Below, one piece after another: positions 24,833 through 44,298 of a DNA stretch of 64,000 bases (the stretch's first letter is position 1; every line of letters starts with the position of its first letter). A program made the translations under genes and the position numbers. Under the pieces are notes generated by a model. It saw only the letters and a program-made list of their open reading frames with translations. It was not told the origin of the DNA and did not search any database. Origin of the DNA: Mesorhizobium sp. SARCC-RB16n (GTDB taxonomy: Bacteria > Pseudomonadota > Alphaproteobacteria > Rhizobiales > Rhizobiaceae); the NCBI RefSeq assembly GCF_008520305.1, contig NZ_ML703258.1:176099-240098 (forward strand), written 5' to 3'.

Positions 24833-24963
24833 TCAGCTCAGTCTGCAGCCCGGGCGGCATGCTTTGCCGAATGACGCTACCTCCATTCAGGCCAACCTGC
24901 TCTCCACGATGGCGTTTGCGCTTCGAGCTCGCTAGTTTCGCGCAAATACCGTGAGAGGGAAGA

Positions 24964-25740
24964 ATGTCACTTAGCCACAATCGCCACAAGAAGCTCATCG
25001 AAATGATCCAAACGGATGGCGAAGTCCGTATCCGAGATGTGATAGCGCAATTCAACATTTCTGAGGAGACCGCGCGGCGGGATATCAAACAGCTCGAGCA
25101 GGACGGCTTGGTCGTGCGCGTCCATGGTGGGGCCGTCGCCACGCAGCAGCCTAAGTTATTGGCCGTCTCGTCGCGCGCGATTTCTCAGCGCGCGGGAAAG
25201 AACGCTATTGCCGAGATAGCGCTCGGTCTTCTCAAGCCCGGGCAGAACCTCTTCTTGGGGGGCGGCAGTACGGTGCTGGCATTGGCTCGTCGCATCTCGG
25301 CTTTGCCGGAGATGCGCATCGTCACCAACATGGTCGATATAGCGATCGCAGCTGCCGACGGACGTCGGCATCGCGTGGTCATGCTGGGCGGTGAATTCAA
25401 TCCCGACTTCCGGACCGTGACAGGATTTCTTGGTCTGCGCACGCTTCGCGAACAGCAGATCGATGTTGCTTTCATCGGGGTCAACGCTGTGCATCCCACT
25501 CTAGGCGTCTTCGACCATGAACAGGTCGGGCAGGACCTCGCCGCGACACTTTGCGAACAGACGCGGAACATCATCGTTCTCGCCGATCACACCAAATTCG
25601 GCTTGTCGGTGCGTTACCGCATCCTGCCCCATTCAGCGATTTCCTCGATCATCACCGACCGGAAGCCGGCACTGGACGTGCTGAAGCAGATCGAAGCCGC
25701 TGGTGCCCAAGTCCTATATCCGCAGCAAAAGCCGTCGTAA
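24964..25740 (+). CDS. DeoR/GlpR-family transcriptional regulator
   Basis: 258 residues. An N-terminal winged helix (RHKKLIEMIQTDGEVRIRD, then EETARRDIKQLEQDG with the DeoR recognition helix signature) is followed by the DeoR C-terminal sensor domain with LFLGGGSTVLALARRI near 100, VMLGGEFNPDFRTVTG near 150 and the metabolite-binding DHTKFG near 220. Members usually repress catabolic operons and respond to sugar phosphates. The divergence-free arrangement, with an ABC importer starting 220 bases downstream and an inverted repeat between, suggests it controls that importer. Confidence 0.9.
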   Translation: MSLSHNRHKKLIEMIQTDGEVRIRDVIAQFNISEETARRDIKQLEQDGLVVRVHGGAVATQQPKLLAVSSRAISQRAGKNAIAEIALGLLKPGQNLFLGGGSTVLALARRISALPEMRIVTNMVDIAIAAADGRRHRVVMLGGEFNPDFRTVTGFLGLRTLREQQIDVAFIGVNAVHPTLGVFDHEQVGQDLAATLCEQTRNIIVLADHTKFGLSVRYRILPHSAISSIITDRKPALDVLKQIEAAGAQVLYPQQKPS

Positions 25741-25796
25741 CCCGGCATAAATGACCTTGACTCTGCTGCGGCATGTGCCTCACAGGAACGCGGTCG

Positions 25797-25816
25797 TTTC
25801 ACGACTGTTTGTGAAA
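25797..25816. promoter_or_regulatory. Inverted repeat, candidate regulator operator
   Basis: TTTCAC and GTGAAA are separated by eight bases, a perfect 6-base dyad in the 222-base gap between the DeoR-type gene and the ABC importer operon. Placement fits an operator for the DeoR-type protein; this is not shown by sequence alone. Confidence 0.4.
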
Positions 25817-25962
25817 TGCCTTTGCGCCTCCATTACAAACCCGCCACAATCCGTCTTAAAGCCACATAAAACCTTCACATAACTGCGCTATGTCTCTGCC
25901 CGTCTCGGGAAGAAGCGGAGTTCGGCCGGCTTGCCGTCCCGACAACAGGAGAAGGTTTTGAT

Positions 25963-27519
25963 ATGCAAACGACACGTCGCACATTTCTAGGCATGACGGC
26001 CCTTGCGGCTGGCGCGATGGCGTTGCCGCGCATGGCCGCAGGCGGCCAGCGACCGAGCCTCAAGATCGCCGTCCAGGATCTGCGCACCATTCTGGAACCG
26101 GTGGATAGCGCTTCCATCGCCAATGTTTCCTGGCGAGTGCAGTACAGCATTTTCGACCAGCTTCTGCGGACAGATTACAACGACAACTTTCGTCTCAATT
26201 TCGCACTCGCAAAATCCTTGAGGCAGATCGACGTGAGAACGTATGAGATCGGTTTGCGCGATAATGTGAAGTTTCATGACGGCTCCACAATGAGCGCGGA
26301 TGATGTTGTCTTGTCGCTCGGGCCGGATCGGCTGCGCGGCGAAAAGGCACCGGGTGCGGCCGTGCTTGCCAATTTCCTTTCCTCACTTGCCGATGTGCAG
26401 AAGGTCGATGACCGCACTGTCCGTCTGTTGACCACGACAGAGGACCCGGTTTTCACCAACCGGCTTGGAGCTTGGGGCACTCAAATCATCAGTGCCAAGG
26501 CTTGGCATGCTGCAAAGAATTACGATGCATGGGCTGCAAAGCCGATCGGCACCGGTCCATACAAGATTGGCGACGTGCGTAGCGGCGACGAGATCACGCT
26601 GGTCGCGCATGATGAGTATTGGGGCGGCCAACCGCCGTTTGCGTCGATCCGTTTCAAGCGGGTGCCGGAGATCGCCGCACGCATCGCTGGGCTGCAGGCG
26701 GGCGATTACGATATCGTCACCGACATCACCCCGGATCACATTGCGGAGATCGAAGGCGTCAAGGGCCTTTCGGTCACCGGCGTCGAAACCACATGGTTCC
26801 GCTTCCTCACATTCTCGCCACTCAAGACGCCCATTTTGAAGGACGTCAACCTGCGTCGCGCGCTTGCCTGCGCGATTGATCGAGATGCACTGGCCGACGG
26901 CCTTTGGAATGGCCGGGCGAAGGCGCTCAATGGCTGGCAGTTGCCGATTTTCGGCGCCATCAATGATCCCGGGCGCAAGGGCGTGTCTTACGATCCGGCG
27001 CTGGTGAAGGAACTCCTCGCCAAGTCGTCGTACAAAGGCGAGGAAATCCCCTACCCTTCCGTCGGCACCTACTATCCGATGCAGCTTGCCGATAACCAGG
27101 CACTGGTCGAAATGTGGAAAGCCGCTGGGCTCAACGTCAAGCTGATCATGTGCGAGAACTGGACGCAGGTCGACAATCTCGGCGGCATCGCGGATACGTC
27201 GGGAGGTGCCTTCTACGCCGATCCCGTCTCCATGCTTTGGCAGATTATCGGCCCGACCAATGACCTGCAGGCGGGCGGCGGCTGGACCAATGCCGAATTC
27301 AACACGCTCGGCCATGAGCTTGAAACGACGACCGATCTCGCCAAGCGCAAGGCGGCCTTCAAACGGATGCAGGACATTGTCGAGATTGAGGACCCCTGCA
27401 TCACACCACTGCACTCCATGCCCTTTATCTATGGGCAGAAGTCGAATGTCAGTTGGCAGCCGAACCCATTGCCGCAAATGTATCTTGGCCCGAAGATGTC
27501 GCCTGAGCCGGTGGCCTGA
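25963..27519 (+). CDS. ABC transporter substrate-binding protein (SBP_bac_5), Tat-exported
   Basis: 518 residues. The N-terminus QTTRRTFLGMTALAAGAMA is a twin-arginine signal with hydrophobic core and a likely cleavage near AGG. The mature part has the dipeptide/oligopeptide/nickel-binding family layout: YSIFDQLLRTDYN near 63, RDNVKFHDGSTMSADDVV near 100, KPIGTGPYKIGDVRSGDEI near 192, and DVNLRRALACAIDRDALAD near 295. It binds a peptide-like or opine-like solute in the periplasm and delivers it to the permeases encoded downstream. It is the first of six co-directional genes. The ligand cannot be named from sequence. Confidence 0.9.
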   Translation: MQTTRRTFLGMTALAAGAMALPRMAAGGQRPSLKIAVQDLRTILEPVDSASIANVSWRVQYSIFDQLLRTDYNDNFRLNFALAKSLRQIDVRTYEIGLRDNVKFHDGSTMSADDVVLSLGPDRLRGEKAPGAAVLANFLSSLADVQKVDDRTVRLLTTTEDPVFTNRLGAWGTQIISAKAWHAAKNYDAWAAKPIGTGPYKIGDVRSGDEITLVAHDEYWGGQPPFASIRFKRVPEIAARIAGLQAGDYDIVTDITPDHIAEIEGVKGLSVTGVETTWFRFLTFSPLKTPILKDVNLRRALACAIDRDALADGLWNGRAKALNGWQLPIFGAINDPGRKGVSYDPALVKELLAKSSYKGEEIPYPSVGTYYPMQLADNQALVEMWKAAGLNVKLIMCENWTQVDNLGGIADTSGGAFYADPVSMLWQIIGPTNDLQAGGGWTNAEFNTLGHELETTTDLAKRKAAFKRMQDIVEIEDPCITPLHSMPFIYGQKSNVSWQPNPLPQMYLGPKMSPEPVA

Positions 27520-27524
27520 GCTCT

Positions 27525-28550
27525 ATGCTGAACAAGTCTTACAAGAACAGCGCGAGTCTCGCGCTGTTGCCGGCTCATGGCGTTCCGCCATCCTGTGCCA
27601 ACCCTGCAATCAAGATTGCTGACCTGACGGTCGCTTTCGGGGGTGTGCCTGTACTACACGGTGTCGATCTCATTGTAGGCAAAGGCGAGGCCGTTGGTGT
27701 CGTCGGCGAATCCGGCTGCGGCAAGTCCGTGACCTGGCGGGCGGTGCTGGATCTGTTGCCACGATCCGCCGAGGTTTCGGGCGAAGCGTGGCTTGGCGAC
27801 TTCGATTTGGTTGGCGCCCGGTCATCAGTTTTGGATCGCGTGCGTGGCGGGCGTATTGCCATGATCTTCCAGGATCCGGCCGGCGCCCTGAATCCGGTGC
27901 ATCGCATAGGCGCGCAAATTGCTGAAGCACTTCGCCTGCATCGCGGCTTGACCGGTCCCGCCGCTCGGGCTGAGACCCGTCGACTGCTCGACCAAGTCGG
28001 CATCGCGGATGCTGCAAGTAGGGTCAATGCCTATCCGCACGAGTTGTCGGGCGGCCAGAACCAACGCGTAATGATCGCCATTGCGCTTGCCGGCCGGCCC
28101 GAACTGCTGGTTGCCGACGAGCCGACGACTGCGCTCGATGCCACTGTGCAGGCGCAGATCCTGTTGCTGCTCAAGAAGATCCAGCAAGACACCGGCATGG
28201 CCTTGGTGATGATAAGCCACGATCTAGCGGCAGTAGCGGCCATCTGTGATCGGGTTTGCGTCATGTATGCCGGACGGATCGTCGAGGCCGGATCGACACA
28301 CACGCTTTTGACAGCGCCGGAGCACCCCTACACGCGCGACCTGATCGGAGCCATTCCGCCATCGTGTGGACCGCGCATACGGTTGACCGCAATAGCGGGC
28401 GCGCCACCGCAGCGACACCTGCCGCCTGGATGTGCCTACTCACCGCGATGTAGGGACGCCGTCGCTGCATGCGCCGTAGCCCGACCGCAAGCGCGGCAGG
28501 TTTCTGCCGGGCATTCCGTGCACTGCCTGAAGGCTGCAGCCGAGCGATGA
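27525..28550 (+). CDS. ABC transporter ATP-binding protein, DppD/OppD-like
   Basis: 341 residues starting five bases after the binding-protein stop. Walker [11 protein letters not shown] near residue 64, signature [12 protein letters not shown] near 173, Walker [15 protein letters not shown] near 195, and the switch His in MISHDLAAV. The C-terminal extension [19 protein letters not shown] is the oligo_HPY motif characteristic of peptide/nickel importers and may bind an Fe-S cluster. It pairs with the next ATPase as a heterodimer under the two permeases. Confidence 0.92.
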
Positions 28551-29509
28551 CCTTGCTGCGTCTCGAAAGCGTTTCCCGCCGCTTCCCGGTCGGCTCCTCA
28601 ATTCTCGGATCGCGGAAATATCTCGCTGCCGTCGATGGCGTGTCGCTGAACGTCGAGGCGGGGCAAACGACCGGCATTGTTGGCGAATCCGGTTGCGGCA
28701 AATCCACCACCGGCCGGATCGCGCTCGGCTTGGATTCGCCGGACAGCGGCCGGGTGCTATTTCAAGGCTCCTTGCTGCCGCGGATCGGCAGCAAGGAGTG
28801 GCGGTCACAGCGGCGGCAGATGCAACTGGTCTTTCAGGACACGCTAGGGGCGCTCGACCGCCGCATGACGGTTGACGCCCTCATCGCCGAGCCACTGGAG
28901 ATTCACGCAGTTGGCGATGCCGCGAGCCGGCGGCAGCGGGTATGGGAGCTGCTCCAAGCCGTGGGACTTGGCGACGACCAACACATGCTGTACCCCCATC
29001 AGCTTTCCGGCGGCCAGCGCCAGCGCGTCGTGCTGGCGCGTGCCCTAGCACCAAAACCGTCGCTTTTGGTTTGCGACGAACCGGTCTCAGCGCTCGACGT
29101 CTCTGTACAAGCACAAATCATCAACCTGCTGGTGGATCTTCAGCGGGAGCTTGGGCTCGGCATATTGTTCATCAGCCATGACTTGCGGATCGTGCGTCAT
29201 GTGAGCGATCGCATTGTCGTTATGTATCTGGGCCGCGTCGTCGAGCAGGGGCGCGCCGACGTCATCATCGACCACCCCGCACATCCCTATACGCAGGCGC
29301 TCGTGTCGGCCATGCCGAGGTTACCGGGCGGCTTCGACCAATATGTGCCGCTCTCGGGCGAGCCGCCGAGCGCCACCGATCGGCCTTCCGGATGTCCGTT
29401 CAATTCACGCTGCCCAGTAGCGCAGGACATATGCCGACAAAGCCTGCCCGAACTCCTGCCACTGGATTCAAAACGGGAGGTCGCCTGCCATCGTGTGAGG
29501 GATCGATGA
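28547..29509 (+). CDS. ABC transporter ATP-binding protein, DppF/OppF-like
   Basis: 320 residues from the ATG at 28547, which overlaps the preceding gene's stop by four bases (ATGA). Walker [18 protein letters not shown] near residue 45, signature LSGGQRQRVVLARAL near 150, Walker B LLVCDEPVSALDVS near 170, switch His in ISHDLRIV, and an oligo_HPY C-terminus (SGCPFNSRCPVAQDIC). It is the second nucleotide-binding subunit. Translational coupling keeps the two ATPases stoichiometric. Confidence 0.92.
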   Translation: MTLLRLESVSRRFPVGSSILGSRKYLAAVDGVSLNVEAGQTTGIVGESGCGKSTTGRIALGLDSPDSGRVLFQGSLLPRIGSKEWRSQRRQMQLVFQDTLGALDRRMTVDALIAEPLEIHAVGDAASRRQRVWELLQAVGLGDDQHMLYPHQLSGGQRQRVVLARALAPKPSLLVCDEPVSALDVSVQAQIINLLVDLQRELGLGILFISHDLRIVRHVSDRIVVMYLGRVVEQGRADVIIDHPAHPYTQALVSAMPRLPGGFDQYVPLSGEPPSATDRPSGCPFNSRCPVAQDICRQSLPELLPLDSKREVACHRVRDR

Positions 29510-30450
29510 CCGCAACAATCATTGGTTTTGTTGGCCCGAAAGTCTTGCGTGCCGCACTTTCGATCCTTGTTGTGGTGACCCTTACCTTCGTGGTGTTACG
29601 CGCGTCCGGAGATCCAGCCTTGCAAATTCTCGGTCCCAGCGCTCGTGCCGCCGACCTCGAAGCCTTTCGCCGGCATTGGGGTCTCGACCAGCCGCTTTCT
29701 TTACAATATCTGCGCTACATCCAGGCGGCGTTTCATGGCGATTTCGGCAATTCCATGCTGGGTGGAAAGCCCGCCCTGGACATTGTGCTCGAGCGCGTGC
29801 CGTTGACATTGGCGCTGATGATCCCGTCGCTGATACTCACAATGCTGATCGGGATTCCCGTCGGCGCCTATGCCGCCATGCATCGCGACAGCTGGGTCGA
29901 TCGATCGGTTATGATGCTGACCGTTCTCGGCTTCACTGTACCGAGCTTCGTGCTCGGGCTGCTCCTGATCCTGATCTTTTCGGTCACACTCGGCCTGTTC
30001 CCGTCAGGCGGCGCAGACCGGGCTGCCGGTTTTGTACTGCCGGTTCTGACGCTCGGCATTGGCGGGGCGGCCATTATCGCGCGTTTCACGCGCAGTGCCA
30101 TGATCGAGGTTCTGTCACAGCTATACGTCGTCGCGGCCAGCGCCAAGGGCGTGACCTGGCGGCAGGTGGTTCGCCAACATGCTCTCCCGAACGCGATCAT
30201 TCCTGTGCTGACGCTGTTCGGCCTGATGCTAGGGGGACAAGTTGCAGGCGCGGTCCTGGTGGAGAATGTATTCGGCTGGCCCGGCATCGGCCAGTTGCTG
30301 GTGGTCTCGGTCGCCAACCGAGACCACGCCGTGGTTCAGGTCATCCTTCTGCTTGTGACACTAACCATGACATCGGCCAACCTCCTGATGGACCTGCTTT
30401 ATGGCGTATTTGATCCGCGCTTGCGGGCATCGTCCGCTGGATCGCATTGA
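29506..30450 (+). CDS. ABC transporter permease, DppB/OppB-like
   Basis: 314 residues from the ATG at 29506, overlapping the ATPase stop by four bases. An N-terminal transmembrane segment (LRAALSILVVVTLTFVVL) and a periplasmic loop with RRHWGLDQPLSLQYL precede the BPD_transp_1 domain. The EAA loop that contacts the ATPases reads VVAASAKGVTWRQVVRQHAL near 205, and LVENVFGWPGIGQLL near 253 is typical of DppB. Six membrane segments are predicted. Confidence 0.92.
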   Translation: MTATIIGFVGPKVLRAALSILVVVTLTFVVLRASGDPALQILGPSARAADLEAFRRHWGLDQPLSLQYLRYIQAAFHGDFGNSMLGGKPALDIVLERVPLTLALMIPSLILTMLIGIPVGAYAAMHRDSWVDRSVMMLTVLGFTVPSFVLGLLLILIFSVTLGLFPSGGADRAAGFVLPVLTLGIGGAAIIARFTRSAMIEVLSQLYVVAASAKGVTWRQVVRQHALPNAIIPVLTLFGLMLGGQVAGAVLVENVFGWPGIGQLLVVSVANRDHAVVQVILLLVTLTMTSANLLMDLLYGVFDPRLRASSAGSH

Positions 30451-30451
30451 G

Positions 30452-31306
30452 ATGCCGGTCATGATGCCTAGGCTTAAGACGACATCCTGGATGGACTTGC
30501 CGACACGCGCCGCAGCGGGCTGGGTTCTGCTCATGGTCGTGGCCGCACTCGTAGCAGCGCACATTGCCCCCTACGACATTACTGCCATCGACCTGCGCCA
30601 TCGTCTGGCGCCGCCTGTGGGGTTCGGCGGGACGATGCTGCATATCCTTGGAACTGACGATCTCGGCCGTGACGTTGCCTCGCGTCTTATCTACTCGATC
30701 CGCACCAGCTTGCTGGTCGCCTTCGGCGCGACCGCGATCAGCGTGTTCGTCGGCACGGCGATCGGCTTCACCGCCGCTTATTTCGGTCGGCTCGTCGAGC
30801 ACGTTCTGCTCCTGATGATCGACGTCCAGGCTTCGTTACCATTTCTCATCGTGGCGCTGGCGATGCTCGCCTTTTTGGGCAATTCGCTGCCGCTGTTCGT
30901 CACGCTGATGGGGCTATACGGTTGGGAGCGGAATGCGCGGCTGGCGCGGGGGCTGGCAATAGCCGCCGGCGCACAGGGCTATGCGAGTGCAACCCGCCAG
31001 CTCGGCGCCCATCCATTGCGCGTCTATGTTCGGCATATCCTGCCCAACAGTGTTGCAACGCTTCTTGTGGCGGCAACAGTGACATTTCCCGAAATCGTTC
31101 TCGTCGAAAGCGGGTTGTCCTTTCTCGGCCTTGGCGTCCAGCCGCCAATGAGCAGCCTCGGCGTCATGGTCGCCGCCGGCCGCGAGTATATCACCCGCGC
31201 CCCCTGGATGCTGCTCGCTCCCAGCCTCGTCATCGTGTTGACCGCCGTCGCAGTGAGCGTCCTCGGCGACTGGTTGCGCGATCAACTCGACCCGACCCTA
31301 AAATGA
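30452..31306 (+). CDS. ABC transporter permease, DppC/OppC-like
   Basis: 284 residues from the ATG at 30452, one base after the previous stop. The N-terminus has the OppC-type short hydrophobic helix and the motif HILGTDDLGRDVASRLIY near residue 68. The EAA-type loop GYASATRQLGAHPLRVYVRH near 175 and ESGLSFLGLGVQPP near 220 are family hallmarks. Together with the preceding gene it forms the membrane channel of the importer. Confidence 0.92.
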   Translation: MPVMMPRLKTTSWMDLPTRAAAGWVLLMVVAALVAAHIAPYDITAIDLRHRLAPPVGFGGTMLHILGTDDLGRDVASRLIYSIRTSLLVAFGATAISVFVGTAIGFTAAYFGRLVEHVLLLMIDVQASLPFLIVALAMLAFLGNSLPLFVTLMGLYGWERNARLARGLAIAAGAQGYASATRQLGAHPLRVYVRHILPNSVATLLVAATVTFPEIVLVESGLSFLGLGVQPPMSSLGVMVAAGREYITRAPWMLLAPSLVIVLTAVAVSVLGDWLRDQLDPTLK

Positions 31307-31315
31307 CGGACCTTC

Positions 31316-32563
31316 ATGCAAAGAAAGCTGATCTCCATACTCGTCGACGGCGTCAGCGCCGACACGTTCGAAGCCTATGCGCACCGCCTCCCGAACATGA
31401 GCCGTCTCGCGGCTTCTGGCCTGCGCGTTCGCCGGCTTAAATCGGCCGTGCCGGCCACCTCTGTCCCCGGCCGCGCAACGATGTTGACGGGCGTTGGACC
31501 CGAGGTGCACGGTGTCTACGGCAATCATATCTTCCGCGGTGACATCTTCATGGCGCCGCTAGCTGAGGATTTGCGGGCACCGACTCTTGCCACCCATGCC
31601 AAGGCCGCCGGCCTGGATGTCGCGGCGATCGGCCATGCGTTGATCGCTTTGGACGATACTTCCATCTATGTCCCGCCCTGGTGGTTGCGTAGTTTCGTGA
31701 CCGGTCATCGCTTCGGAAAGATGTGTACTCCCGAAGCATTGGCGGCCTCGCGCGCTATCCACGATCCCGAAGATCGGCTCGCGCGCGCCGGCCTGACCGA
31801 AATGGATTGGTTCCGAGAGTCAGTTGATGACGGCGCACCGCAGCTGCTGGCCGGCCTCGCACTCGATCAGTTTCTTAATCGCGCCGTCGTGGCTCTGCTC
31901 GGCTCCGATCGGCCGCCGGATCTCGTGCTGACGGAGATCGAGGTGCCGGATGCATTCCAGCATTATCTCGGCTACGACAGCCCAACTGCTATCTGGTCGA
32001 TGCAGTTCGCCGACATGCTGCTGGGTAACGTCTTGGCAGTTCTCGAGCGGAACGGACGGCTCGGCGACTATGTGGTCGCGATCGCCAGCGACCACGGTCA
32101 CGGTCCGGTCGATACGGCGATTTTTCCAGAGGCCATTATCCCTGACATGCACTGGATGACCGAAGGCGCCAGCCTCTACGTCTCCCTCAAAACGCCCGGC
32201 GATGTTGACAGAGCCACCGCGCGATTGTCGCCCTACGGCGTCGAGCTCTGGAACGATCTGCATCTACCGGAGCCACTCCGCGGGGCTGTAGCGATGTTCG
32301 TCGCGCCGCCTCGGCATTCCTTCGAGGAGCGAGCGACGCATGCGTCCGCGCCGCTCTCTGCGACGGGCAGGCCGCGCGCCATCTCAACTCACGGTTTTCG
32401 GCCGGGCAGCCGTGAGGACGACCGTATGTTCATCCTGTCCGGCATCGGCGTGGCCCAGCGGACCGTCGATGAGGCAAATGCGGACCAGTTTGCGCCGACG
32501 CTGGCGCGTGTTCTCGGCTTGCCCCAGGCGCCGTATGCCGGGCGCTCTCTGATCGAGGATTAG
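31316..32563 (+). CDS. Nucleotide pyrophosphatase/phosphodiesterase-family hydrolase
   Basis: 415 residues of the alkaline phosphatase superfamily. Metal and nucleophile motifs are in order: ILVDGVSADTF (Asp near 10), VPGRATMLTGVGPEVHG (Thr nucleophile near 51), TEIEVPDAFQHYLG (Asp and His near 210), ASDHGHGP (Asp-His near 260) and STHGFRPGSR (His near 360). These enzymes cut phosphodiesters, nucleotide pyrophosphates or phosphonoacetate-type substrates. No signal peptide is seen, so it acts in the cytoplasm, downstream of the importer. Its place as last gene of the operon suggests it processes the imported solute, which may therefore be a phosphodiester or phosphonate compound. Substrate is inference. 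Confidence 0.85.
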   Translation: MQRKLISILVDGVSADTFEAYAHRLPNMSRLAASGLRVRRLKSAVPATSVPGRATMLTGVGPEVHGVYGNHIFRGDIFMAPLAEDLRAPTLATHAKAAGLDVAAIGHALIALDDTSIYVPPWWLRSFVTGHRFGKMCTPEALAASRAIHDPEDRLARAGLTEMDWFRESVDDGAPQLLAGLALDQFLNRAVVALLGSDRPPDLVLTEIEVPDAFQHYLGYDSPTAIWSMQFADMLLGNVLAVLERNGRLGDYVVAIASDHGHGPVDTAIFPEAIIPDMHWMTEGASLYVSLKTPGDVDRATARLSPYGVELWNDLHLPEPLRGAVAMFVAPPRHSFEERATHASAPLSATGRPRAISTHGFRPGSREDDRMFILSGIGVAQRTVDEANADQFAPTLARVLGLPQAPYAGRSLIED

Positions 32564-32755
32564 ATCTGTCTATGATTTCGGAAATTATGTTCAGCCCTGT
32601 CGCCACCTTCTCTTTCGGCCAGTACTGAACATCGAGTAGCCATTCCGCCTCTGGGCACCATCAACCTATTAAGGTGTTGACGCAGCTGAAAACTAGCAAA
32701 ATAGGTGCTTAGGGCTGCCCGAGTCATACACACGGGTGCTACATATGGTCCTTGT

Positions 32756-32992
32756 ATGAGCCGTCCCGTCAAACATCCCAAGACCGGCGTCTATTGGTTC
32801 CGGAAGCGGGTGCCAGCTGTCACCCCAGCCATCAAGCGCCAGATGCGCCGCCGCTCCGCCATCGAACCCGTCATCGGCCACATCAAGGCCGAGCACCGGA
32901 TGGGCCGCAACTACCTCGCCGGCCAGCAGAGTGACGCCCTCAATGCCATCCTGGCCGCCGCCGGCTACAACTTCTCCCTCCTGCTCAACTGA
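32756..32992 (+). pseudogene. Chimeric scrap: integrase N-terminus joined to IS5-type transposase tail
   Basis: The first 20 residues (MSRPVKHPKTGVYWFRKRV) match the start of DUF6538-type tyrosine integrases. From about 32816 the same frame continues as TPAIKRQMRRRSAIEPVIGH and HRMGRNYLAGQQ, then AAGYNFSLLL, the conserved C-terminus of IS5/IS1182-type transposases. Neither part is complete. The in-frame join suggests an IS5-type element landed in, or recombined with, an integrase gene and most of both was lost. Confidence 0.7.
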
Positions 32993-33286
32993 TTCAGGCA
33001 GCTTTTTTGGCTTCTCATCGCAGCCTCCAAGGTCAGCCAAACGAGATCGAAGCCTGACCAATCTCATTGTTCATGGTCGACTAAAACGGCCCGACCAGAC
33101 ATAGAGGAGAGGCATCCCCGTTGCCCCGCCTCGCCAAAGGCGCACGAGGGCGGACGTGCACACTGGCGCGAGCCCACCGGGGGTATCGCGCTGCTGAAAC
33201 TATCCAGTTCGACCCCTCGATTTTTACCGCTTTTTCGAATCGCTGTAGACTGATATCCACAAAAATCAAATGGAGGCTTGGGAAAA

Positions 33287-37196: not shown

Positions 37197-39086
37197 TCAT
37201 GAGAACGCCTCCCTGAAAAAGATCGCAAGGTTGGCCAGAAGCCAAAACTTCCGCCCGAATGAATCAGAAGGTTTTTCTCGTCCGACCTCAAACCAACGCC
37301 TCAAGGCAGGAGGGTCGAATAAATTTCCTAGGGGAGAGTCCTCGTGAAACAGCAGCCTTCGATATTGCGCTGCTCCCTCGCCCACCGCCCATTGGCCCAG
37401 CGGAAGCGGAAATCCCATCTTTTTCCGAGATAAAACGGACTTGGGCAAGACGCTCCGGTATTCGCTTCGTAAGGGATATTTTGAGACGTCAAGACGTTCG
37501 CTGAAGGAAGCGACCGGCTGCCAAAGTGCCTGGACGGAAGCGATTGGTGACCTCCACCTTAACCGCTGGGAGCCGGGTATTGCCATTGCGGCGGTTACAA
37601 GCTGGTGATCGGTGAAAGGAACGCGAGCTTCAATCCCAGCTGCCATCGTGGTGTTGTCGACCATCTCCAGCAGCGCTGGCAGATGCGTAGAGACGAAGAC
37701 ACGTGATATTTTGCTAAAGAAGTCTCCTTCGGCCTCCGCAAATTGAGCCGCAAAATGATCGACGAGTTCCATCTCGTACTCCGTTCCCATCTGGCCATCG
37801 ATAGCAAGCGAGCGGATCTCATCAGCTGGAAAGTACGTATAACGGTCCAAGAAAAACTGCAGCTGATTGCCATGGGCCCCAAGGCCAAGGCGCCGGCGTG
37901 CGATCTGGGCCAAGGAAGAAGGCAATGCGGCGATGAATTTGCTTCGATTGTAATCATACGGCGTCCGAAACAAGCGGCTATAGCCCGCGAAAATTTCGTC
38001 AGCACCCTCGCCCGTGAGTACGACTTTATGCTCCTTCGAAATTGCCTTTGCGAGCGTATACATGGCGGTTTCGTTATGCATTCCAAGTGGATGTCCACGC
38101 AAACGGACCAGCTCTGCCACAGCCTCAATATCGGACGGTTCTGGAATTGGGACGACGCGGTGAGTGAGCCCGAACTCAGCGGCAACCTCCATGGCATAGC
38201 CCGTCTCGTCATATTCGGAGGGCTCGACCCTGCCGGTATAGCAGATGGGATGAATTTGTGAGCGAGCGGAGGCCTCATAGGCAAGGATGCTGGAATCAAG
38301 CCCGCCGGACAACAATACGGCCACCGGGACATCAGCTACCAGCTGGCGTTGAACAGCGTTTCCGAGCAATTCCTTAATGTCGGAGTCCGGCTTCGAGCGT
38401 GAGATGCCCTCAGACAAATCCCACCAACGTTCGGACCTGTAGCGCCCGCTTTTTATCTCGAGGAGATAGCCGGGCTCTAATTTGGAAATGCCAGCGTACA
38501 GCGTGCGGGATCCTACAACGGCGCGATAGGATAGAAAGCTGAGCGCGCCGATCATGTCCGGTCCGCGCATGACCCCTGGCCAGCGAATAAGAGCATTCGG
38601 CTGCGATCCAAATACGAGTCCAGTATCGCAAATCGTGTAGTAAAGTGGCTTTACGCCTAACCGGTCCCGGGCGATGAGAACAAGGCAATTTCGAGGATCG
38701 AACAGCGCAAAGGAAAATATCCCGTCTAAGCGATCCAAGAATGCTCGTCCCCACGCGATATAACCGACAATCAAGACTTCTGTATCTGACGTCGTCGAAA
38801 AACAGTAACCCAATTGCTGCAATTCTTTTTTCAACTTACGATAGTTGTATATCTCTCCATTGTACGTAATTACCACTCCGGTCTCGTTATCGCGAAGAGG
38901 TTGATTGGCTCGAGAATTAAGATCGATAACGGATAGCCGTCGATGTGCGAACGCAACCGAACGATCAATGTATAGACCTCTGGCATCTGGTCCGCGATGA
39001 GCAAGAGCGTCCGCGCAATGCTCTACCGCCTCCGCGGAGACCGGCATACCTTCCTCTTTAAGGACTATCCCGAAGATTCCGCACAT
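37197..39086 (-). CDS. Asparagine-synthase-type glutamine amidotransferase
   Basis: 629 residues, started at the ATG at 39086 so that Cys2 becomes the N-terminal nucleophile (MCGIFGIV). The class II glutaminase domain (1-200) has AHRGPDARG and TYNGEIYNY. The synthetase domain has the ATP-pyrophosphatase loop LLSGGLDSS near 255 and GEGADEIFAGY near 365. These enzymes make an amide from a carboxylate with ATP and glutamine. As the last gene of the PEP mutase operon, with 31 bases to the methyltransferase, it probably amidates an intermediate of that pathway rather than serving asparagine supply. A housekeeping asnB role cannot be excluded. Confidence 0.9.
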   Translation of the reverse strand: MCGIFGIVLKEEGMPVSAEAVEHCADALAHRGPDARGLYIDRSVAFAHRRLSVIDLNSRANQPLRDNETGVVITYNGEIYNYRKLKKELQQLGYCFSTTSDTEVLIVGYIAWGRAFLDRLDGIFSFALFDPRNCLVLIARDRLGVKPLYYTICDTGLVFGSQPNALIRWPGVMRGPDMIGALSFLSYRAVVGSRTLYAGISKLEPGYLLEIKSGRYRSERWWDLSEGISRSKPDSDIKELLGNAVQRQLVADVPVAVLLSGGLDSSILAYEASARSQIHPICYTGRVEPSEYDETGYAMEVAAEFGLTHRVVPIPEPSDIEAVAELVRLRGHPLGMHNETAMYTLAKAISKEHKVVLTGEGADEIFAGYSRLFRTPYDYNRSKFIAALPSSLAQIARRRLGLGAHGNQLQFFLDRYTYFPADEIRSLAIDGQMGTEYEMELVDHFAAQFAEAEGDFFSKISRVFVSTHLPALLEMVDNTTMAAGIEARVPFTDHQLVTAAMAIPGSQRLRWRSPIASVQALWQPVASFSERLDVSKYPLRSEYRSVLPKSVLSRKKMGFPLPLGQWAVGEGAAQYRRLLFHEDSPLGNLFDPPALRRWFEVGREKPSDSFGRKFWLLANLAIFFREAFS

Positions 39087-39117
39087 TGATGTCGCTCTCA
39101 TATACGAGTGATGCCGA

Positions 39118-40032
39118 CTACGTGCTTGGCTTGTTGCCGATCATCTGGATGCAGCCATCGCCGAACCAGAACCGAGCAAGCGGATGGTCGTAATGACGGT
39201 ACATTGGCGCGAGAAAGCGCCGAAGGTTGTGGAAATTTCTCGTATACCTTGAGATCCTGCGAATGTTGTCGAAGCCGCACTCGACAAACCAGTCTCGGAT
39301 TTGCTCCTCTGTAAATGAGAACTCGTGGTAGGTTGGCGCCTGGAAACGATCCCGAATCGTCACAAACAAATCATCGTCGAAAAGACTTCGGAAGAATGCG
39401 TTTTCGCCCGGCATATGTTCTTCTTCTTCACTCTCCTTTGTTTTCAACAGCCAGTCGATGGCTTCACGTGCGGTGGATCCATTCAGATTGTCGATCGCGC
39501 TGCGAAATTGTGCATCGTTTTGATAGAGCTCTCGCAAATGGTTGATGCATCGATAGATGACGCCGTTTGCGGTGCCCATGATCGTCAGGAAGAAGCTGCC
39601 CCCGGGACGAGTTACGCGGGCAAGTTCCTCGAAGCCTTTTTTCGGATCGCTGGTGTGCGGCAGAACCCCGGCGCAATGGACAAAATCGAACCTCTTTTCG
39701 TCGAACGGGAGATCGAGCACACTGCCGGCGACCAATTGCGAGCGCGGCCCGAAGCGGCTAAGCCGTTTGCGCGCGCAATCCATCCAATCGTTGCCCAGTT
39801 CAAGTGAGACAACGCTATGCGCTCCCTTTTCAAGAAACGCATAAGACGCATTCGCATTCGAGCCGCAGCCCGCGTCTAAGACGTCAAGGCCACGGAAGCT
39901 ACCGACTGCGAGGCCGAAATATTCCTCCTCAATGAGGGAGACCAATCTGTCAAATATGTGAGGATCATTCTCCTGGTCGCGCTGATACTGATCGAAGACA
40001 GTGCGCGTGCGGATTTCGAAAGAGCTTTCCAT
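39118..40032 (-). CDS. SAM-dependent methyltransferase
   Basis: 304 residues from the ATG at 40032, eight bases after GAGGG. The class I methyltransferase fold shows motif I LDVLDAGCGSNAN near residue 50, an acidic post-I residue in VVSLELGNDW, motif II FDFVHCAGVLPH near 118 and motif III RVTRPGGSFF near 143. Residues 160-300 form a helical, aromatic-rich C-terminal extension. The substrate is not given by sequence; its place in the PEP mutase operon suggests N- or O-methylation of an aminophosphonate head group or its amide. Confidence 0.88.
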   Translation of the reverse strand: MESSFEIRTRTVFDQYQRDQENDPHIFDRLVSLIEEEYFGLAVGSFRGLDVLDAGCGSNANASYAFLEKGAHSVVSLELGNDWMDCARKRLSRFGPRSQLVAGSVLDLPFDEKRFDFVHCAGVLPHTSDPKKGFEELARVTRPGGSFFLTIMGTANGVIYRCINHLRELYQNDAQFRSAIDNLNGSTAREAIDWLLKTKESEEEEHMPGENAFFRSLFDDDLFVTIRDRFQAPTYHEFSFTEEQIRDWFVECGFDNIRRISRYTRNFHNLRRFLAPMYRHYDHPLARFWFGDGCIQMIGNKPST

Positions 40033-40048
40033 GCTTTTTCCCTCACTT

Positions 40049-40660
40049 TTACGATGCAAGTGGATTTGCGAGCAGGGCGTAGGATCCGGCAGCAACCAGT
40101 GTAAGGTTGGCCAGGCGCAACCAGTTGCCGGTACCAGGAAATTTGAAATTTGAGAGATGTAGCAGGGACAGAAGAAGCGCCGCGCCTATCAGGAGACCGC
40201 CAAAGTGAGGGATTGCCACATAACGGTTTGTGGCAAAGAGAGCGGCCAACACGAAGAGGTCATTGTTCAACGGCAATCCTCTGCCGAATCCGTCATCGTC
40301 GAGCCCGAACGCTGAAAAATAGCTGAGGCGGAGGGCCCCTGACAGGACAAGGCAAACCGCAGCTAACAGCGACGGAACAGAGAACGCGTTGAAAGACAAG
40401 ATGAGAACTGCCGGAAAAACAGCCGCATAGACCAAATCCGCTAACCCATCGAATGCGGCTCCCACCTGGGCCGTCAAAGCGGAGCGGCTCCGGGAATGCT
40501 TTGCGACCATGCCATCGGCATCATCCGCCAGAAGCGCCCATAAGGCGAAACAAATGCCAAGCTCGAAGCGTCCGACCAAGGCAAAATAGATCGCGGTCGT
40601 GGCGAAGATCAGCCCAAGTGCGGTAATGGCATTTGCAGCATCGAAGAGATAGCGGATCAT
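40049..40660 (-). CDS. CDP-alcohol phosphatidyltransferase-family membrane enzyme
   Basis: 203 residues from the ATG at 40660, four bases after the stop of the fusion gene. The signature DxxDGxxA(R/K)...GxxxDxxxD is present as DDADGMVAKHSRSRS then GAAFDGLADLVYAAVF at about residues 44-78, with Lys in place of the usual Arg. Membrane helices include ALGLIFATTAIYFALV, SVPSLLAAVCLVLSGAL and LLIGAALLLSLLHL. The family joins a CMP-activated group to an alcohol, and the second half of the motif resembles phosphatidylserine synthase. Here the donor is probably the nucleotide-activated phosphonate made by the preceding enzyme, and the acceptor a lipid alcohol at the inner membrane. Confidence 0.85.
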   Translation of the reverse strand: MIRYLFDAANAITALGLIFATTAIYFALVGRFELGICFALWALLADDADGMVAKHSRSRSALTAQVGAAFDGLADLVYAAVFPAVLILSFNAFSVPSLLAAVCLVLSGALRLSYFSAFGLDDDGFGRGLPLNNDLFVLAALFATNRYVAIPHFGGLLIGAALLLSLLHLSNFKFPGTGNWLRLANLTLVAAGSYALLANPLAS

Positions 40661-40664
40661 CCTG

Positions 40665-42701
40665 CTACTCTCCGGCGGCGGCTGCGACGGGGCCGGAGCC
40701 GTATCTCGCGGATCGCTCGACTGTGAAAATCCTCTCGGCCACGCGCAGGTCTTCTTCGCTGTCGATCTCATACCATCTCAGATCGTCGCATCGCGCCGCC
40801 GCAAGCTGCAGTCCGTTGCGCTCGATAAGGATACCGAGCAGTTCCTCGGTATAAACTTTGGTCGCACCCGAGCCGATGATGTCGCAAAGGACCGGGACGA
40901 TCTTTGTTCGGAGTTCGGCGCCAGAGAACCGGATAAGGTTCATCATTTTGAAGAGTGGCGGGCCGCCTAAGGCCAGGCTGGCTGCCGTCTGCTTTAACCG
41001 GACCTCGGATATGAAGCCGTCGCTGGAAAGGATGGCTGCGGACCCTTCCATAGAAGGATCGAACGGCGCAACGGCAGCGGTATTGGCCGCGTCTTCCATC
41101 ATCAGATAGCGCAGAGCATCTTCTTCGAAGAAGACGTCAGCTTCGAGGAGGTAGCAGTCTCCGGAAAGGAGCGCATCACGCGCCAACCAGAGCGAGTAGG
41201 CACTGCCGGTCCGGTCGAAAACCACCGACTCGACATAATTGATCTTCACGCCACCGAAGAGACTGCCGCATGCATATTGGATGGCGTCCTTGCGATAGCC
41301 TACGACGATAGTCGCCTCTTCAACGCCAACCGCTTCCAGGTTTCCAAGCGCGTTGTGTAGTATGGGCGTGCCATTGACCTCCACCAGGGGCTTCGGCCGC
41401 AGATCGGTTAGTGGACGCAGACGAGAGCCGAAACCCGCGGCTAGAATGACGGCCTTTTTGGGGGGGTTGATCGTCGCAGGTGTTCCCCTTCTGTGTTCCG
41501 CGATTTTGCCGGGTTTTTCCCAACCGTTGAGCACCTCGACGATGCGGCTCAGCCCGGCTTCGAGTTTTTCTGGCGGAGTTCCATAGGAGAGGCGTATGGC
41601 AGCGGGATCGCCGAAGGCGGTGCCGGGGACCGTTGCCACGCCGGCTTTGGTCAGCGAATGCACTATCTTTTCAGCGTCGTCGGTGGTCACATTCCACGGC
41701 TCGCGCGCTAGCAGGTTCGTTAAATCGAGATAGAAGTAGAACCCGCCCTGCGCCTTCGGCACTGGTACCCGCGTTAGCGATGAGAGCACGTTGAGACCGA
41801 TTTCCCTGGCACTGGTCAACTGCGATCGCAGTTGACGCTCATAGCTGCCGTCTCCTCGCTCTAGATGCGCCAACACGGCATGCTGGGCGATGACATTCGG
41901 ATTTGATGTGGTGTGCGACTGCAACGCCTTCACGGCGTTGATGATCTCCTTTGGACCGGCGAGGTAGCCAATTCGCCATCCGGTCAGTGCCAAAGCCTTG
42001 CTGAAGCTGTTGACGATGAGCGCCCGAGGCCGAACCTCCGGAACAACGGAGACGATCGCGTGATGGGTATGATGCTCGTGGACGAACTCGCCATAGCACT
42101 CATCGAAAATGATCCACAAGTCGCGATAAATCGCGAGCTGGGCAATCGCCATCAGCGTCTGGGCGTCATAAACGGCACCGGTGGGATTACCAGGCGTGTT
42201 GATGATGATTGCCCGGGTCCGGGTGGTGACCGCAGCCTCGATGTCTTCCACCCGCGCGACATAGCCATTGGAGCGAGTTTCGACGAAGACCGGCTTGCCG
42301 CCGGCGATCAGCACCTGCGCCGGGAAAGTCGTCCAGTAAGGCATCGGGATGATGACTTCGTCGCCTGGGTTGAGCAACACCATAGCCGCGCTGAAGAGCG
42401 CCTGTTTGGCCCCTGTCGTGGTGATGACCTCTTCGGCATTCCACATCTGTCCGGTATCGATACACACCTTTTTCGCCAGCGCCTCGCGCAGATCCATCAT
42501 GCCAGCGGTATCGGTATAGCGATTGACACCTTTGCGGATGGCCTCGAACGCACCGTCGCGAATTGTTGGAGCGAGGTCACTCCAGATTTCACCCGCGGCC
42601 AGATCAATGATGTCATCGCCAGCATCGGCAGATGCCCTCGCCGCTGCCCGCGCGGCGGCGGTCCCCGATGAACGGAACAAGGTTGTCCGTTTCGCAAGCA
42701 T
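40665..42701 (-). CDS. Aminotransferase-nucleotidyltransferase fusion
   Basis: 678 residues. Residues 1-395 are a fold-type I aminotransferase of the aspartate aminotransferase subgroup: NRYTDTAGMMDLREAL, TTTGAKQALFSAA, NTPGNPTGAVY and the PLP lysine in NSFSKALALTGWRIGYLAG near 235. Residues 415-665 are a nucleotidyltransferase of the LicC type: VILAAGFGSRLRPLTDLRPK, and SAYSLWLARDALL near 530. The Treponema enzyme PntC joins the same activities in the opposite order, so far as I recall. Following PEP mutase, the likely job is amination of phosphonopyruvate and activation of the product as a CMP ester. An excellent GGAGG site lies seven bases before the ATG at 42701; the gap to pepM is 41 bases. 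Confidence 0.88.
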   Translation of the reverse strand: MLAKRTTLFRSSGTAAARAAARASADAGDDIIDLAAGEIWSDLAPTIRDGAFEAIRKGVNRYTDTAGMMDLREALAKKVCIDTGQMWNAEEVITTTGAKQALFSAAMVLLNPGDEVIIPMPYWTTFPAQVLIAGGKPVFVETRSNGYVARVEDIEAAVTTRTRAIIINTPGNPTGAVYDAQTLMAIAQLAIYRDLWIIFDECYGEFVHEHHTHHAIVSVVPEVRPRALIVNSFSKALALTGWRIGYLAGPKEIINAVKALQSHTTSNPNVIAQHAVLAHLERGDGSYERQLRSQLTSAREIGLNVLSSLTRVPVPKAQGGFYFYLDLTNLLAREPWNVTTDDAEKIVHSLTKAGVATVPGTAFGDPAAIRLSYGTPPEKLEAGLSRIVEVLNGWEKPGKIAEHRRGTPATINPPKKAVILAAGFGSRLRPLTDLRPKPLVEVNGTPILHNALGNLEAVGVEEATIVVGYRKDAIQYACGSLFGGVKINYVESVVFDRTGSAYSLWLARDALLSGDCYLLEADVFFEEDALRYLMMEDAANTAAVAPFDPSMEGSAAILSSDGFISEVRLKQTAASLALGGPPLFKMMNLIRFSGAELRTKIVPVLCDIIGSGATKVYTEELLGILIERNGLQLAAARCDDLRWYEIDSEEDLRVAERIFTVERSARYGSGPVAAAAGE

Positions 42702-42742
42702 GTTGCGCCTCCTCGTCTCGTTTGCTTTCAGAAAAGGGTGGT

Positions 42743-43693
42743 CTAAACCGGCTGACGGACGCCGCTCGCCTTCTGTGGTAGATATTTCTCTTCGGCCGCA
42801 GCCAGTTCCTGGTATTTGAGCAAGTCGAACACTTCGTCCAGCGTTGCCACCTCATTCTCGATACCAGCGATTGTTTCCTCCCGAACGATTCGACCGCAAA
42901 TATGGCGCATGGCAGCAGTGGCGGCGCGCAAGTTGTGGTTGGCCCAGATCACCATGGAGATCCCAGCGGCGCGATATGCGGAGACCGGCGTGCGGTAATA
43001 CTTCGTCGGTACGATGACGACTGGAAGTCGGTTCTGCCAGGCGCGAGTGAAGGCCAAGATCTCCTCCGCGTCGAACCTGCGGGAATGGATGAGGATGGCA
43101 TCAGCGCCCGCCTCGGCGTAGGCATAGGCGCGCGCCAGCGCCTCATCCATTCCGCGGCCGGCGATCAGCGCCTCGGTACGGGCAACCAGCACGAATTCCG
43201 GATCCGGAATTCGGTCCTTGATCGCCTTGAGCCGTCCACAAAACTCCACGGTTTCGGCGAGGAGGTGTCGGTCCCCCACGAACGAATTCATCTTTGGAAA
43301 CACCTTATCTTCGAGGCAAACGCCGCTTGCGCCATATCGGCGTAGTTTGCTGGCCATGAGGCGGGCATTGTTGAAATTTCCAAATCCGCTGTCGCCGTCG
43401 ACCAGGATCGGAATCCGCACAGCATCTGCCATACGCTCTACAACATTGACAAGCTCGGACCAGGAGGCTTCATTCGCATCGCGATAGCCGAGACTTGATG
43501 AGATCGACAGGCCTGACGCCCAAAGCACCTTGAAGCCCGCGCGCTCCACGATCGCGGCCGAGAGACCGTCGTGCCCTTCCATTGCAAAAGTAAGCTCGCT
43601 GGCTGCGATCAGTTGAAGCAAGCTTTCGGCCGTCCGACCGGCGGAAATCATATTTTGTGTAGGCCGTTTTGGTACATCGCTGTGCATCTTCAT
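42743..43693 (-). CDS. pepM: Phosphoenolpyruvate mutase
   Basis: 316 residues from the ATG at 43693, with GGAAAAGG about six bases upstream; a TTG start 39 bases further out is possible. The isocitrate lyase/PEP mutase superfamily barrel is clear, and CLEDKVFPKMNSF near residue 135 is the EDKx5NS signature that separates true PEP mutases from lyases. Other active-site segments are WASGLSISSSLGYRD near 60 and VDGDSGFGNFNNA near 100. The enzyme converts PEP to phosphonopyruvate, the entry to nearly all natural phosphonates. It heads a tight five-gene operon. Phosphonopyruvate decarboxylase, the usual next enzyme that pulls the unfavourable equilibrium, is absent. Confidence 0.93.
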   Translation of the reverse strand: MKMHSDVPKRPTQNMISAGRTAESLLQLIAASELTFAMEGHDGLSAAIVERAGFKVLWASGLSISSSLGYRDANEASWSELVNVVERMADAVRIPILVDGDSGFGNFNNARLMASKLRRYGASGVCLEDKVFPKMNSFVGDRHLLAETVEFCGRLKAIKDRIPDPEFVLVARTEALIAGRGMDEALARAYAYAEAGADAILIHSRRFDAEEILAFTRAWQNRLPVVIVPTKYYRTPVSAYRAAGISMVIWANHNLRAATAAMRHICGRIVREETIAGIENEVATLDEVFDLLKYQELAAAEEKYLPQKASGVRQPV

Positions 43694-44298
43694 ACATGCC
43701 TTTTCCAAATCGTCATAATGGCGGTTCACCAATATTCTTCAAGTTAAGATAACGTTTCTGTTTGTAACGCTTTCGCACTCTCGATTTAACGAAAATTTGT
43801 ATTATGCTTCACATTTGTTCATATTTCGCACCGCTCGCGGTGGAAGCGGGCAAAGGAAACGGCGCGTCCGCCGTCGGCCGAGAGAGCGGATTGGCGAAAC
43901 TCCTGAGCCGTTCGAGATTGTTGTGTTGTCACCCACACCATGATGGGCCATGCCTTCAGATGCTCGCAACCAAGCGCTTTGACGCTGGTGTACTGACCAA
44001 TCCTGGACGATCTGTCAGCGCCGCGATCGCGCTCTACGGCAGTAAGCTGCGACTGCTGCAGCGTATTGCGCGTTGGAAGCGAATTTTGCTGGTCGGGACA
44101 GGCCTTCCGTTTTTGGTGCGCAGTGTTTCGACAATTGGCCGCTAAAGAGACCATTCAATAATGGACAAGTCGCCAAGCGAGTGAGCGAGGTCGTGCCCGC
44201 CGTGGCCATAGATGGTGCCGACCTCCATCCCGCAATGGGTCGCCACAGCGCAACTAAGGACTCTAGGCACCCGCCGCCACGTGCGGGCGACGCCGGCA
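43694..44298. other. Spacer between the gibberellin and PEP mutase operons
   Basis: No whole gene. An AT-rich stretch at 43733-43830 (GTTTGTAACG, TTTAACGAAAATTTGTATTA) is a plausible promoter region for pepM. On the minus strand at about 44150-44240 a frame ends THCGMEVGTIYGHGGHDLAH then SLGDLSIIEWSL; it looks protein-like but its upstream part is absent, so it may be the tail of a lost gene. Confidence 0.35.

Follow-up and report, generated by a model that had tools for sequence, protein, structure and literature searches.

Genes for the synthesis and the catabolism of rhizopines are reportedly closely linked on the Sym plasmid. Rhizopines (mos/moc of Sinorhizobium meliloti L5-30) are inositol amines, products of MosB/MosDEF, that few strains make, in nodules and under NifA control, with the producers typically carrying the catabolism genes (PMC6668481, PMC10107442). 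Here we analysed an operon within a 64,000-nucleotide stretch of DNA from Mesorhizobium sp. SARCC-RB16n (the whole stretch is called the window) that starts with pepM, the gene for phosphoenolpyruvate (PEP) mutase, and that probably serves root-nodule bacteria in making a carbon-phosphorus (C-P) compound. In contrast to rhizopines its product would be a phosphonate. NifA2-dependent expression in nodules has been published for probable Mesorhizobium loti orthologues (PMC3538637), while the window has no -24/-12 element. Linked catabolism genes were found in many relatives, while the window has only an importer and an alkaline-phosphatase-superfamily hydrolase (AlkP). Since the gene set predicts a phosphonate, we do not file the cluster as a rhizopine system but only as one that would work like it.

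Opines are products of transformed plant cells that express T-DNA genes. The agrocinopines (Acc system) are sugar phosphodiesters from the infected plant, which are imported via the periplasmic AccA and split by the phosphodiesterase AccF (PMC7356202). This resembles the importer and AlkP of the window. In contrast to the agrocinopine case, the window holds bacterial synthesis genes, and the phosphorus would be bound to carbon.

Among phosphonate pathways, FrbH of FR-900098 synthesis has a pyridoxal phosphate (PLP) domain that is a decarboxylase. FrbH cytidylylates an amino acid phosphonate, 2-amino-4-phosphonobutyrate (PMC6697681), whereas phosphonoalanine is proposed for the window. Tde1415 of Treponema denticola (PntC/AEPT) unites an aminotransferase and a LicC-like cytidylyltransferase in one chain encoded near ppm, as in the window (PMC6697681). 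There the cytidylyltransferase comes first and is joined to a class V 2-aminoethylphosphonate (AEP) transaminase, while in the window a class I aspartate-type aminotransferase comes first, in a cluster without phosphonopyruvate decarboxylase (Ppd). In the phosphonoalamide pathway of Streptomyces (PnaD/PnaA) PepM is pulled by a phosphonopyruvate transaminase of the aspartate aminotransferase family, as we propose here, but phosphonoalanine then passes to ATP-grasp peptide ligases, and the four genes given as essential include neither a cytidylyltransferase nor a phosphotransferase (PMC11867202). We file the window cluster as phosphonate biosynthesis with PntC-like activation that would work like a rhizopine or opine system. 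A literature search, with subscription journals mostly outside its reach, found no description of this system. That its product is a phosphonate ester made by bacteroids and taken up and broken down by kin, in the manner of rhizopines and opines, is in our view evenly balanced.

The pepM operon and its predicted enzymes

The five open reading frames (ORFs) of the operon are colinear on the minus strand, with successive gaps of 41, 4, 16 and 16 bases (Table 1). ORFs together with Pfam and NCBIfam matches thus confirmed the arrangement that a sequence-only reading of this DNA had described: five genes on one strand separated by 4 to 41 bases. The pepM product scored 347.5 against TIGR02320 of NCBIfam (cut-off 319.55), matched the PEP mutase structure PDB 1m1b with E 2e-97 and was 66-81% identical to six relatives adjoining the same cassette. 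It holds EDKVFPKMNS, i.e. the EDKX5NS motif of PepM-based phosphonate biosynthesis, which the reading had also picked out. Its further statement that no Ppd is present at the locus held, as tblastn found none within the 64 kb window.

The second gene encodes an aminotransferase fused to a cytidylyltransferase (Pfam Aminotran_1_2, 6e-62, and NTP_transferase, 9e-13). The solved structures nearest to the first domain are aspartate aminotransferases (1bkg, E 5e-72). In this domain the Lys that 1b5o has as Ser is kept, as are the region of the PLP lysine and the IRLSY arginine, which presumably have the roles known for such enzymes. Among 71 near-full-length copies the G[AGS]KQ lysine motif was present in 56, the PLP-lysine motif in 66 and the arginine motif in 62. 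Phosphonopyruvate is an oxaloacetate analogue. PnaA, a relative of aspartate aminotransferase, converts it to phosphonoalanine and pulls PepM although the reaction is reversible (PMC11867202); the claim of the sequence-only reading that an irreversible second step is needed was therefore too strong.

The cytidylyltransferase domain matched LicC (1jyk, E 2.7e-14) and the T. denticola PntC fusion (6pd1, E 7e-8). A LicC-like cytidylyltransferase and pepM thus share one operon, which corresponds to the linkage to ppm that marks PntC. PntC enzymes activate AEP with CTP; since the cluster lacks Ppd and with it a route to that compound, the substrate here is more likely phosphonoalanine. In relatives the cytidylyltransferase is annotated as a separate gene, and in none of the 69 other loci with pepM and cytidylyltransferase did the two domains share one ORF, which makes the fusion the only one of its kind in the loci that we examined. 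It is known from one contig and may stem from a lost stop codon or a sequencing error. A second type of fusion within the same cassette was seen at L048:3092-5269, where a 725-residue ORF joins PepM and the aminotransferase.

The third gene product, a 203-residue membrane protein, had no Pfam match at 0.001. In NCBIfam it matched archaetidylserine synthase (6e-15) far under the family cut-off, and phosphatidylserine synthase likewise below cut-off. The signature of CDP-alcohol phosphatidyltransferases is Dx2DGx2ARx8Gx3Dx3D. In an alignment of the window protein with 27 of 58 listed homologues the corresponding residues D46, D49, G50, A53, G67, D71 and D75 were invariant in all 28 sequences, with the usual Arg being Lys in the window. 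A relaxed form of the signature was present in 33 of 33 near-full-length matches; a stricter pattern, with narrower spacing and with Arg or Lys required behind the Ala, fitted just 24 of 64.

The last two genes would tailor the product. Mesorhizobium sp. 131-3-5 has a methyltransferase at the same place that is 86% identical. The AsnB-like protein carries MCGIF near its start and an SGGLDS-type motif. Its true start is probably the ATG at 39086, which we prefer because a start at MCGIF exposes the glutaminase Cys.

Conservation of the cassette and linked import and breakdown genes

Relatives were sought by scanning genomes with seven aligned PepM proteins, which gave 254 hits. The best 80 of these were kept, such that the sample leans to close kin. 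Among the window and these 80 pepM loci the cytidylyltransferase was found in 64 and Ppd in 12, both together only in L046. Of the 64 cytidylyltransferase-positive units (window included), 59 held the phosphotransferase and 48 an aspartate-type aminotransferase above cut-offs, adjoining pepM as in the window and predicted to act on phosphonopyruvate. In the wider set that included plasmid loci, pepM and cytidylyltransferase occurred together in 70 of 89 units. The cassette is widespread in Hyphomicrobiales. In the plasmid collection the cytidylyltransferase (E 1e-40) was present in 49 of 72,556 records, all from Sinorhizobium, Agrobacterium, Rhizobium, Mesorhizobium or Bradyrhizobium and with Ti plasmids among them. 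Its recurrence in dozens of other genomes shows that the window operon is no chance arrangement.

The possibility that the same aminotransferase couples PepM in all relatives was rejected, since 16 of the 64 cassette units had no copy above cut-offs. Separately, 18 of the 64 contained a protein of about 570 residues annotated as histidinol-phosphate transaminase, or a relative of it (L001:16018-17724, L017:16576-18285). Its first 250 residues had no Pfam match and by eye look like a degenerate nucleotidyltransferase.

The window-type set of six genes, with methyltransferase and AsnB, was found in 7 of 88 loci (L001, L002, L009-L012, L017). In S. numidicum the set is joined by a formyltransferase and the AsnB is more distant. 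S. fredii has the set divided between two divergent operons, indicating that it is kept despite shuffling. Other strains have different tailoring genes, such as dehydrogenases, relatives of ornithine cyclodeaminase and cysteine synthase, or second aminotransferases. One cassette cluster of a nodule isolate contains a gene annotated as octopine/nopaline dehydrogenase family (L101:21288-22499), for which NCBIfam gave a weak dehydrogenase match.

The pepM-aminotransferase-cytidylyltransferase cassette is also carried by Ti plasmids and a related A. vitis plasmid. On these (L089 14909-29677, L099, L100) we observed extra genes of ParB-like, ornithine cyclodeaminase, Y4yA/alanine-racemase-type and cysteine-synthase kinds, with an importer in the same direction; the extra genes are reminiscent of SbnI/B/H/A, the gene set for diaminopropionate.

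PepM itself varied at its motif. Among 92 PepM hits 50 had EDK, 30 EDS and 9 EDT, with 3 unmatched, i.e. EDS or EDT in 39 of 92. EDT was seen in L001, L009-L015 and L017, and EDS in loci between L041 and L088, mostly Bradyrhizobium. Surveys that filter on EDKX5NS, such as that of PMC6697681, would miss these proteins.

In several relatives the cassette lies next to genes for uptake and breakdown. In S. fredii CCBAU 83666 the phosphotransferase, methyltransferase and asnB genes are followed on one strand by phnF, an importer, AlkP, a second phnF and phnGHIJK-M-L. In S. meliloti 4H41 a single line of genes comprises pepM, aminotransferase, cytidylyltransferase, methyltransferase, importer, AlkP, phnF and phnGHI. 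The window-type importer is followed by AlkP and phnMGHIJKL in L093, in Microvirga (L008) and on pMLa (L092), where 74 bases lie between the match to AlkP and that to phnM. Methylosinus has phn genes 3 kb upstream of pepM, and S. meliloti AK83 and Ti-type plasmids have importers inside the cluster. A relative of palA (phosphonopyruvate hydrolase) together with an aspartate-aminotransferase-like partner occurs near the cassette in R. indigoferae, R. gallicum and S. meliloti AK57; the R. indigoferae copy scored above the TIGR02321 cut-off and that of R. gallicum 360 against 374. This pair agrees with a breakdown of phosphonoalanine and phosphonopyruvate by PalA/PalB (PMC10574752) and thus provides an independent pointer to phosphonoalanine.

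On the plasmid of Microvirga sp. VF16 (L008) the operon of importer, AlkP and C-P lyase is accompanied by another importer and, at a different place, by a palA relative (85%), but a search of this plasmid found no cassette cytidylyltransferase. It is a possible consumer-only replicon.

We quantified the linkage on plasmids using the best place per record. Only records with at least 60% identity were counted as palA relatives; 49 of the 83 records of the palA search fell below this and were dropped, many being PepM. The remaining 34 records included 14 with the cytidylyltransferase, and 13 of these 14 pairs lay within 25 kb, where 1.4 were expected at random. The AlkP subfamily (E 1e-40) was present in 14 records, 10 of them with the cytidylyltransferase, and 8 of 10 pairs lay within 25 kb (1.3 expected at random). 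Removing near-duplicates took away 5 palA and 1 AlkP pairs and left 8 of 9 and 7 of 9 pairs within this distance. In a draw of 146 genomes of one genus the cytidylyltransferase was found in 17 of 18 genomes with AlkP compared to 25 of 128 without; the Fisher P of 6e-10 is too small because symbiotic islands are shared. A family draw of 297 genomes gave 1 AlkP and 3 cytidylyltransferases (E 1e-50), too few positives for a co-occurrence test.

Expression in M. loti and further features of the window

Sullivan, Brown and Ronson (2013) obtained lacZ insertions in pepM (msi327), aatA (msi326) and asnB (msi323) of M. loti R7A (PMC3538637), which are probable orthologues of the window genes, as judged from the gene order in L017 and not from the R7A sequence. 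The remark of the sequence-only reading that it knew of no described system with this set is therefore not correct for three of the genes, even though the earlier work did not treat it as a phosphonate pathway. Each gene gave less than 20 Miller units in broth, while bacteroids reached 827 for pepM, 2456 for aatA (the top value of Table 4 there) and 862 for asnB; in a nifA2 mutant the values were 7.7, 16.2 and 22.0. All three mutants were Fix+ and fully effective. The authors considered direct NifA activation highly unlikely and listed the genes without NifA/RpoN promoters (PMC3538637). A text search of the main text of that article found no 'phosphon'.

The genes of L017, a record of M. loti CJ3sym, run prx-rpoN, cytochrome P450, ferredoxin, NTF2-like protein, short-chain dehydrogenase, luciferase-like monooxygenase, pepM, aminotransferase, cytidylyltransferase, phosphotransferase, methyltransferase and AsnB. 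This fits msi332 (P450), msi331 (ferredoxin), msi327 (pepM) and msi326 (aatA). Between aatA and asnB the msi numbers accommodate two genes, but L017 has three there, such that one is probably unannotated. Upstream of pepM, TGT-N10-ACA located 40-200 bases before a -24/-12 match was found in 11 of 83 units, L017 included, compared to 0.7% of random stretches. These 11 amount to about two independent cases, because they form two Mesorhizobium groups of near relatives.

In the window the block from the DeoR regulator to AlkP (24.9-32.6 kb) is convergent to the pepM operon. Positions 24945-31351 have 81% DNA identity to the plasmid of Mesorhizobium sp. 131-3-5 directly downstream of its cassette, and all four ATPase and permease genes are matched there. 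On that plasmid the pepM cluster and importer lie near nifHDK; the AlkP adjoining its cluster is a more distant copy, 48% identical to that of the window. The structures nearest to the window AlkP were nucleotide pyrophosphatases/phosphodiesterases (NPPs; 7mw8, 6e-10, and 2gsn, 8e-10), followed by phosphonoacetate hydrolase (3szy, 2.7e-5). In an alignment of ten members D11, D212, H216, D259, H260 and H359 were invariant and T48 and S49 nearly so, residues whose roles would follow those in NPPs. The short ORFs that follow AlkP resemble, by eye, remnants of insertion-sequence transposases or recombinases.

The pepM operon region also has a family 20 glycosyltransferase (trehalose-phosphate synthase type), a LysR regulator and a hexapeptide transferase. 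Matches on plasmids to the genes about 0.6 kb upstream of the operon include polyprenyl synthetase and fni; we take these genes to form a putative gibberellin-type operon. Elsewhere in the window, 33278-33745 passes the NCBIfam gas vesicle family GvpU (84.9 against a cut-off of 70), and 60864-61808, within the symbiotic region, matches Pfam Evf (1e-15, named virulence factor there). The protein encoded at 1996-7563 has 1855 residues, combines the domains DUF4011, helicase, MTES_1575 nuclease and DUF3320 and resembles large defence helicase-nucleases.

Table 1. Positions in the window of the pepM operon, the importer block and associated sites.
Feature	Position	Strand	Basis
pepM, phosphoenolpyruvate mutase	42743..43693	-	TIGR02320, EDKVFPKMNS, PDB 1m1b
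Aminotransferase-cytidylyltransferase fusion, 678 aa	40665..42701	-	Aminotran_1_2 and NTP_transferase
Class I aspartate-aminotransferase-like domain (fusion N-terminus), proposed phosphonopyruvate transaminase	41481..42701	-	Nearest structures are aspartate aminotransferases
LicC/PntC-like cytidylyltransferase domain (fusion C-terminus), proposed phosphonoalanine cytidylyltransferase	40665..41480	-	1jyk, 6pd1
CDP-alcohol phosphotransferase, 203-residue membrane protein, proposed phosphonyl transfer from CMP to alcohol	40049..40660	-	NCBIfam below cut-off, signature
S-adenosylmethionine-dependent methyltransferase, proposed tailoring	39118..40032	-	Methyltransf_11, E 1.7e-18
AsnB-like glutamine-dependent amidotransferase, proposed tailoring	37197..39101	-	Asn_synthase 1e-66, GATase_7 5e-38
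TGTGGGTGACAACACA, fits NifA upstream site TGT-N10-ACA, no -24/-12 partner	43922..43937	-	About 8% of random 700-base stretches have such a site
DeoR-family regulator of importer operon	24964..25740	+	DeoRC 1e-35; 80% identical to gene adjoining Mesorhizobium cassette
Family 5 (Opp/Dpp-type) solute-binding protein	25963..27519	+	SBP_bac_5 1e-66
Importer, two ATP-binding cassette ATPases and two permeases, ORF starts uncertain	27525..31306	+	Pfam match, first permease
AlkP, NPP-like hydrolase, proposed phosphonate-ester hydrolase	31316..32563	+	Phosphodiest 5e-42
Short ORFs where three relatives (L008, L092, L093) have C-P lyase genes	32564..33067		Sequence

Possible roles of the product

For this organism we infer each enzymatic step, the product, the way it is exported and what kin do with it, as follows. 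PepM would convert PEP to phosphonopyruvate, which the aminotransferase domain would draw off as phosphonoalanine at the expense of an amino donor in ample supply. From this the cytidylyltransferase half of the fusion would form CMP-phosphonoalanine, and the membrane phosphotransferase would pass the phosphonyl group to a small alcohol, giving a phosphonate ester that the methyltransferase and amidotransferase could tailor. A diffusible product would leave the bacteroid and be imported by free-living kin or the same strain through the Opp-type importer. The NPP-like hydrolase would then split the ester, reversing the phosphotransferase step, and phosphate, carbon and nitrogen would be recovered via C-P lyase or PalB/PalA. 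The compound may thus be a private nutrient made in the nodule for free-living kin.

Several observations weigh against such an exchange. In the window neither C-P lyase nor palA was found, and no sigma-54 promoter precedes pepM (none scoring at least 7 of 11). Within about 10 kb only 12 of the 64 cassette units had the searched permeases and 15 any AlkP type (Ppd loci: 0 and 1 of 12). Any of permease, AlkP, phn and palA was present in 23 of the 64, compared to 1 of 12 Ppd loci. Of the 34 records with palA, 20 had no cassette cytidylyltransferase, nor had 4 of the 14 with AlkP, and two AlkP genes lay more than 150 kb from the cytidylyltransferase. Related strains are non-independent, and part of the linkage may be hitch-hiking on shared symbiotic islands. 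Some of the copies look damaged: the R. gallicum M101 cytidylyltransferase matches over 63% and is unannotated, the S. meliloti AK57 palA relative matches in two pieces, and 3 of the 42 cytidylyltransferase matches of the genus draw are fragments with a stop. Finally, the EDK motif of PepM is replaced by EDT in the M. loti type and by EDS in the Bradyrhizobium type, both variants being putative mutases.

The nearest curated families of the phosphotransferase are lipid enzymes, and CDP-alcohol phosphotransferases usually have one lipid substrate, as would be expected if the aminophosphonate were placed on diacylglycerol to give the bacteroid membrane a phosphatidylserine analogue with a C-P bond. 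In the same direction, and against an exchanged compound, most bacterial phosphonate capacity is predicted to serve cell-surface tailoring, with CMP-aminophosphonates as donors (PMC6697681). We nevertheless consider a phosphonolipid unlikely. The recurrent linkage to solute importers, an NPP-like hydrolase, C-P lyase and palAB is unexpected for a membrane lipid, such that a soluble exported compound fits better, and the wide variation of tailoring genes between strains would be odd for a structural one. From the sequence-only reading the Ppd-less phosphonate pathway, the phosphonoalanine pull step and the CMP activation are thus supported by homology and precedent, while its lipid product is less well supported.

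A secreted antimetabolite, i.e. a nodule-made antibiotic or plant-active phosphonate, would explain importer, hydrolase and C-P lyase as detoxification or self-protection. Phosphonates are unusually bioactive (PMC6697681), phosphonoalanine tripeptides are antimicrobial (PMC11867202), two clusters have annotated major facilitator superfamily transporter genes, and agrocin 84 and agrocinopine exemplify an exploited opine importer (PMC7356202). The mutants without a symbiotic phenotype are neutral here, but an importer plus mineralisation genes would make for costly self-protection, and we judge this explanation improbable to the same degree as the lipid. Still less probable is an internal store of phosphorus or amino groups, or another metabolic role within bacteroids that involves no transfer between cells. 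The NifA2-dependent bacteroid expression in M. loti would suit it, as would the breakdown genes that share a replicon with the cassette in some strains. Against it, the breakdown module has a solute-binding protein and importer, and the Microvirga plasmid combines importer, AlkP, C-P lyase and a palA relative without the cytidylyltransferase, as would a consumer-only strain.

Beyond a single exchanged ester, it is conceivable, though we lean slightly against it, that rhizobia and Ti plasmids share a family of phosphonate nutritional mediators with a common core, strain-specific tailoring and matching consumer genes that restrict use to kin; this same tentative judgement covers jointly a core of PepM, phosphonopyruvate transaminase, cytidylyltransferase and phosphotransferase leading to an activated aminophosphonate. 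If exchange of the phosphonate among kin holds true, it would provide a function for an operon that in M. loti has a counterpart ranking with the most highly expressed bacteroid genes of one reporter study and yet phenotype-free. Phosphorus would join the goods possibly traded around legume nodules, in a rhizopine-like currency that is partly invisible to strict EDKX5NS surveys. The rhizopine idea, so far two inositol amines, would be reopened as a wider, diversified strategy shared with Ti plasmids.

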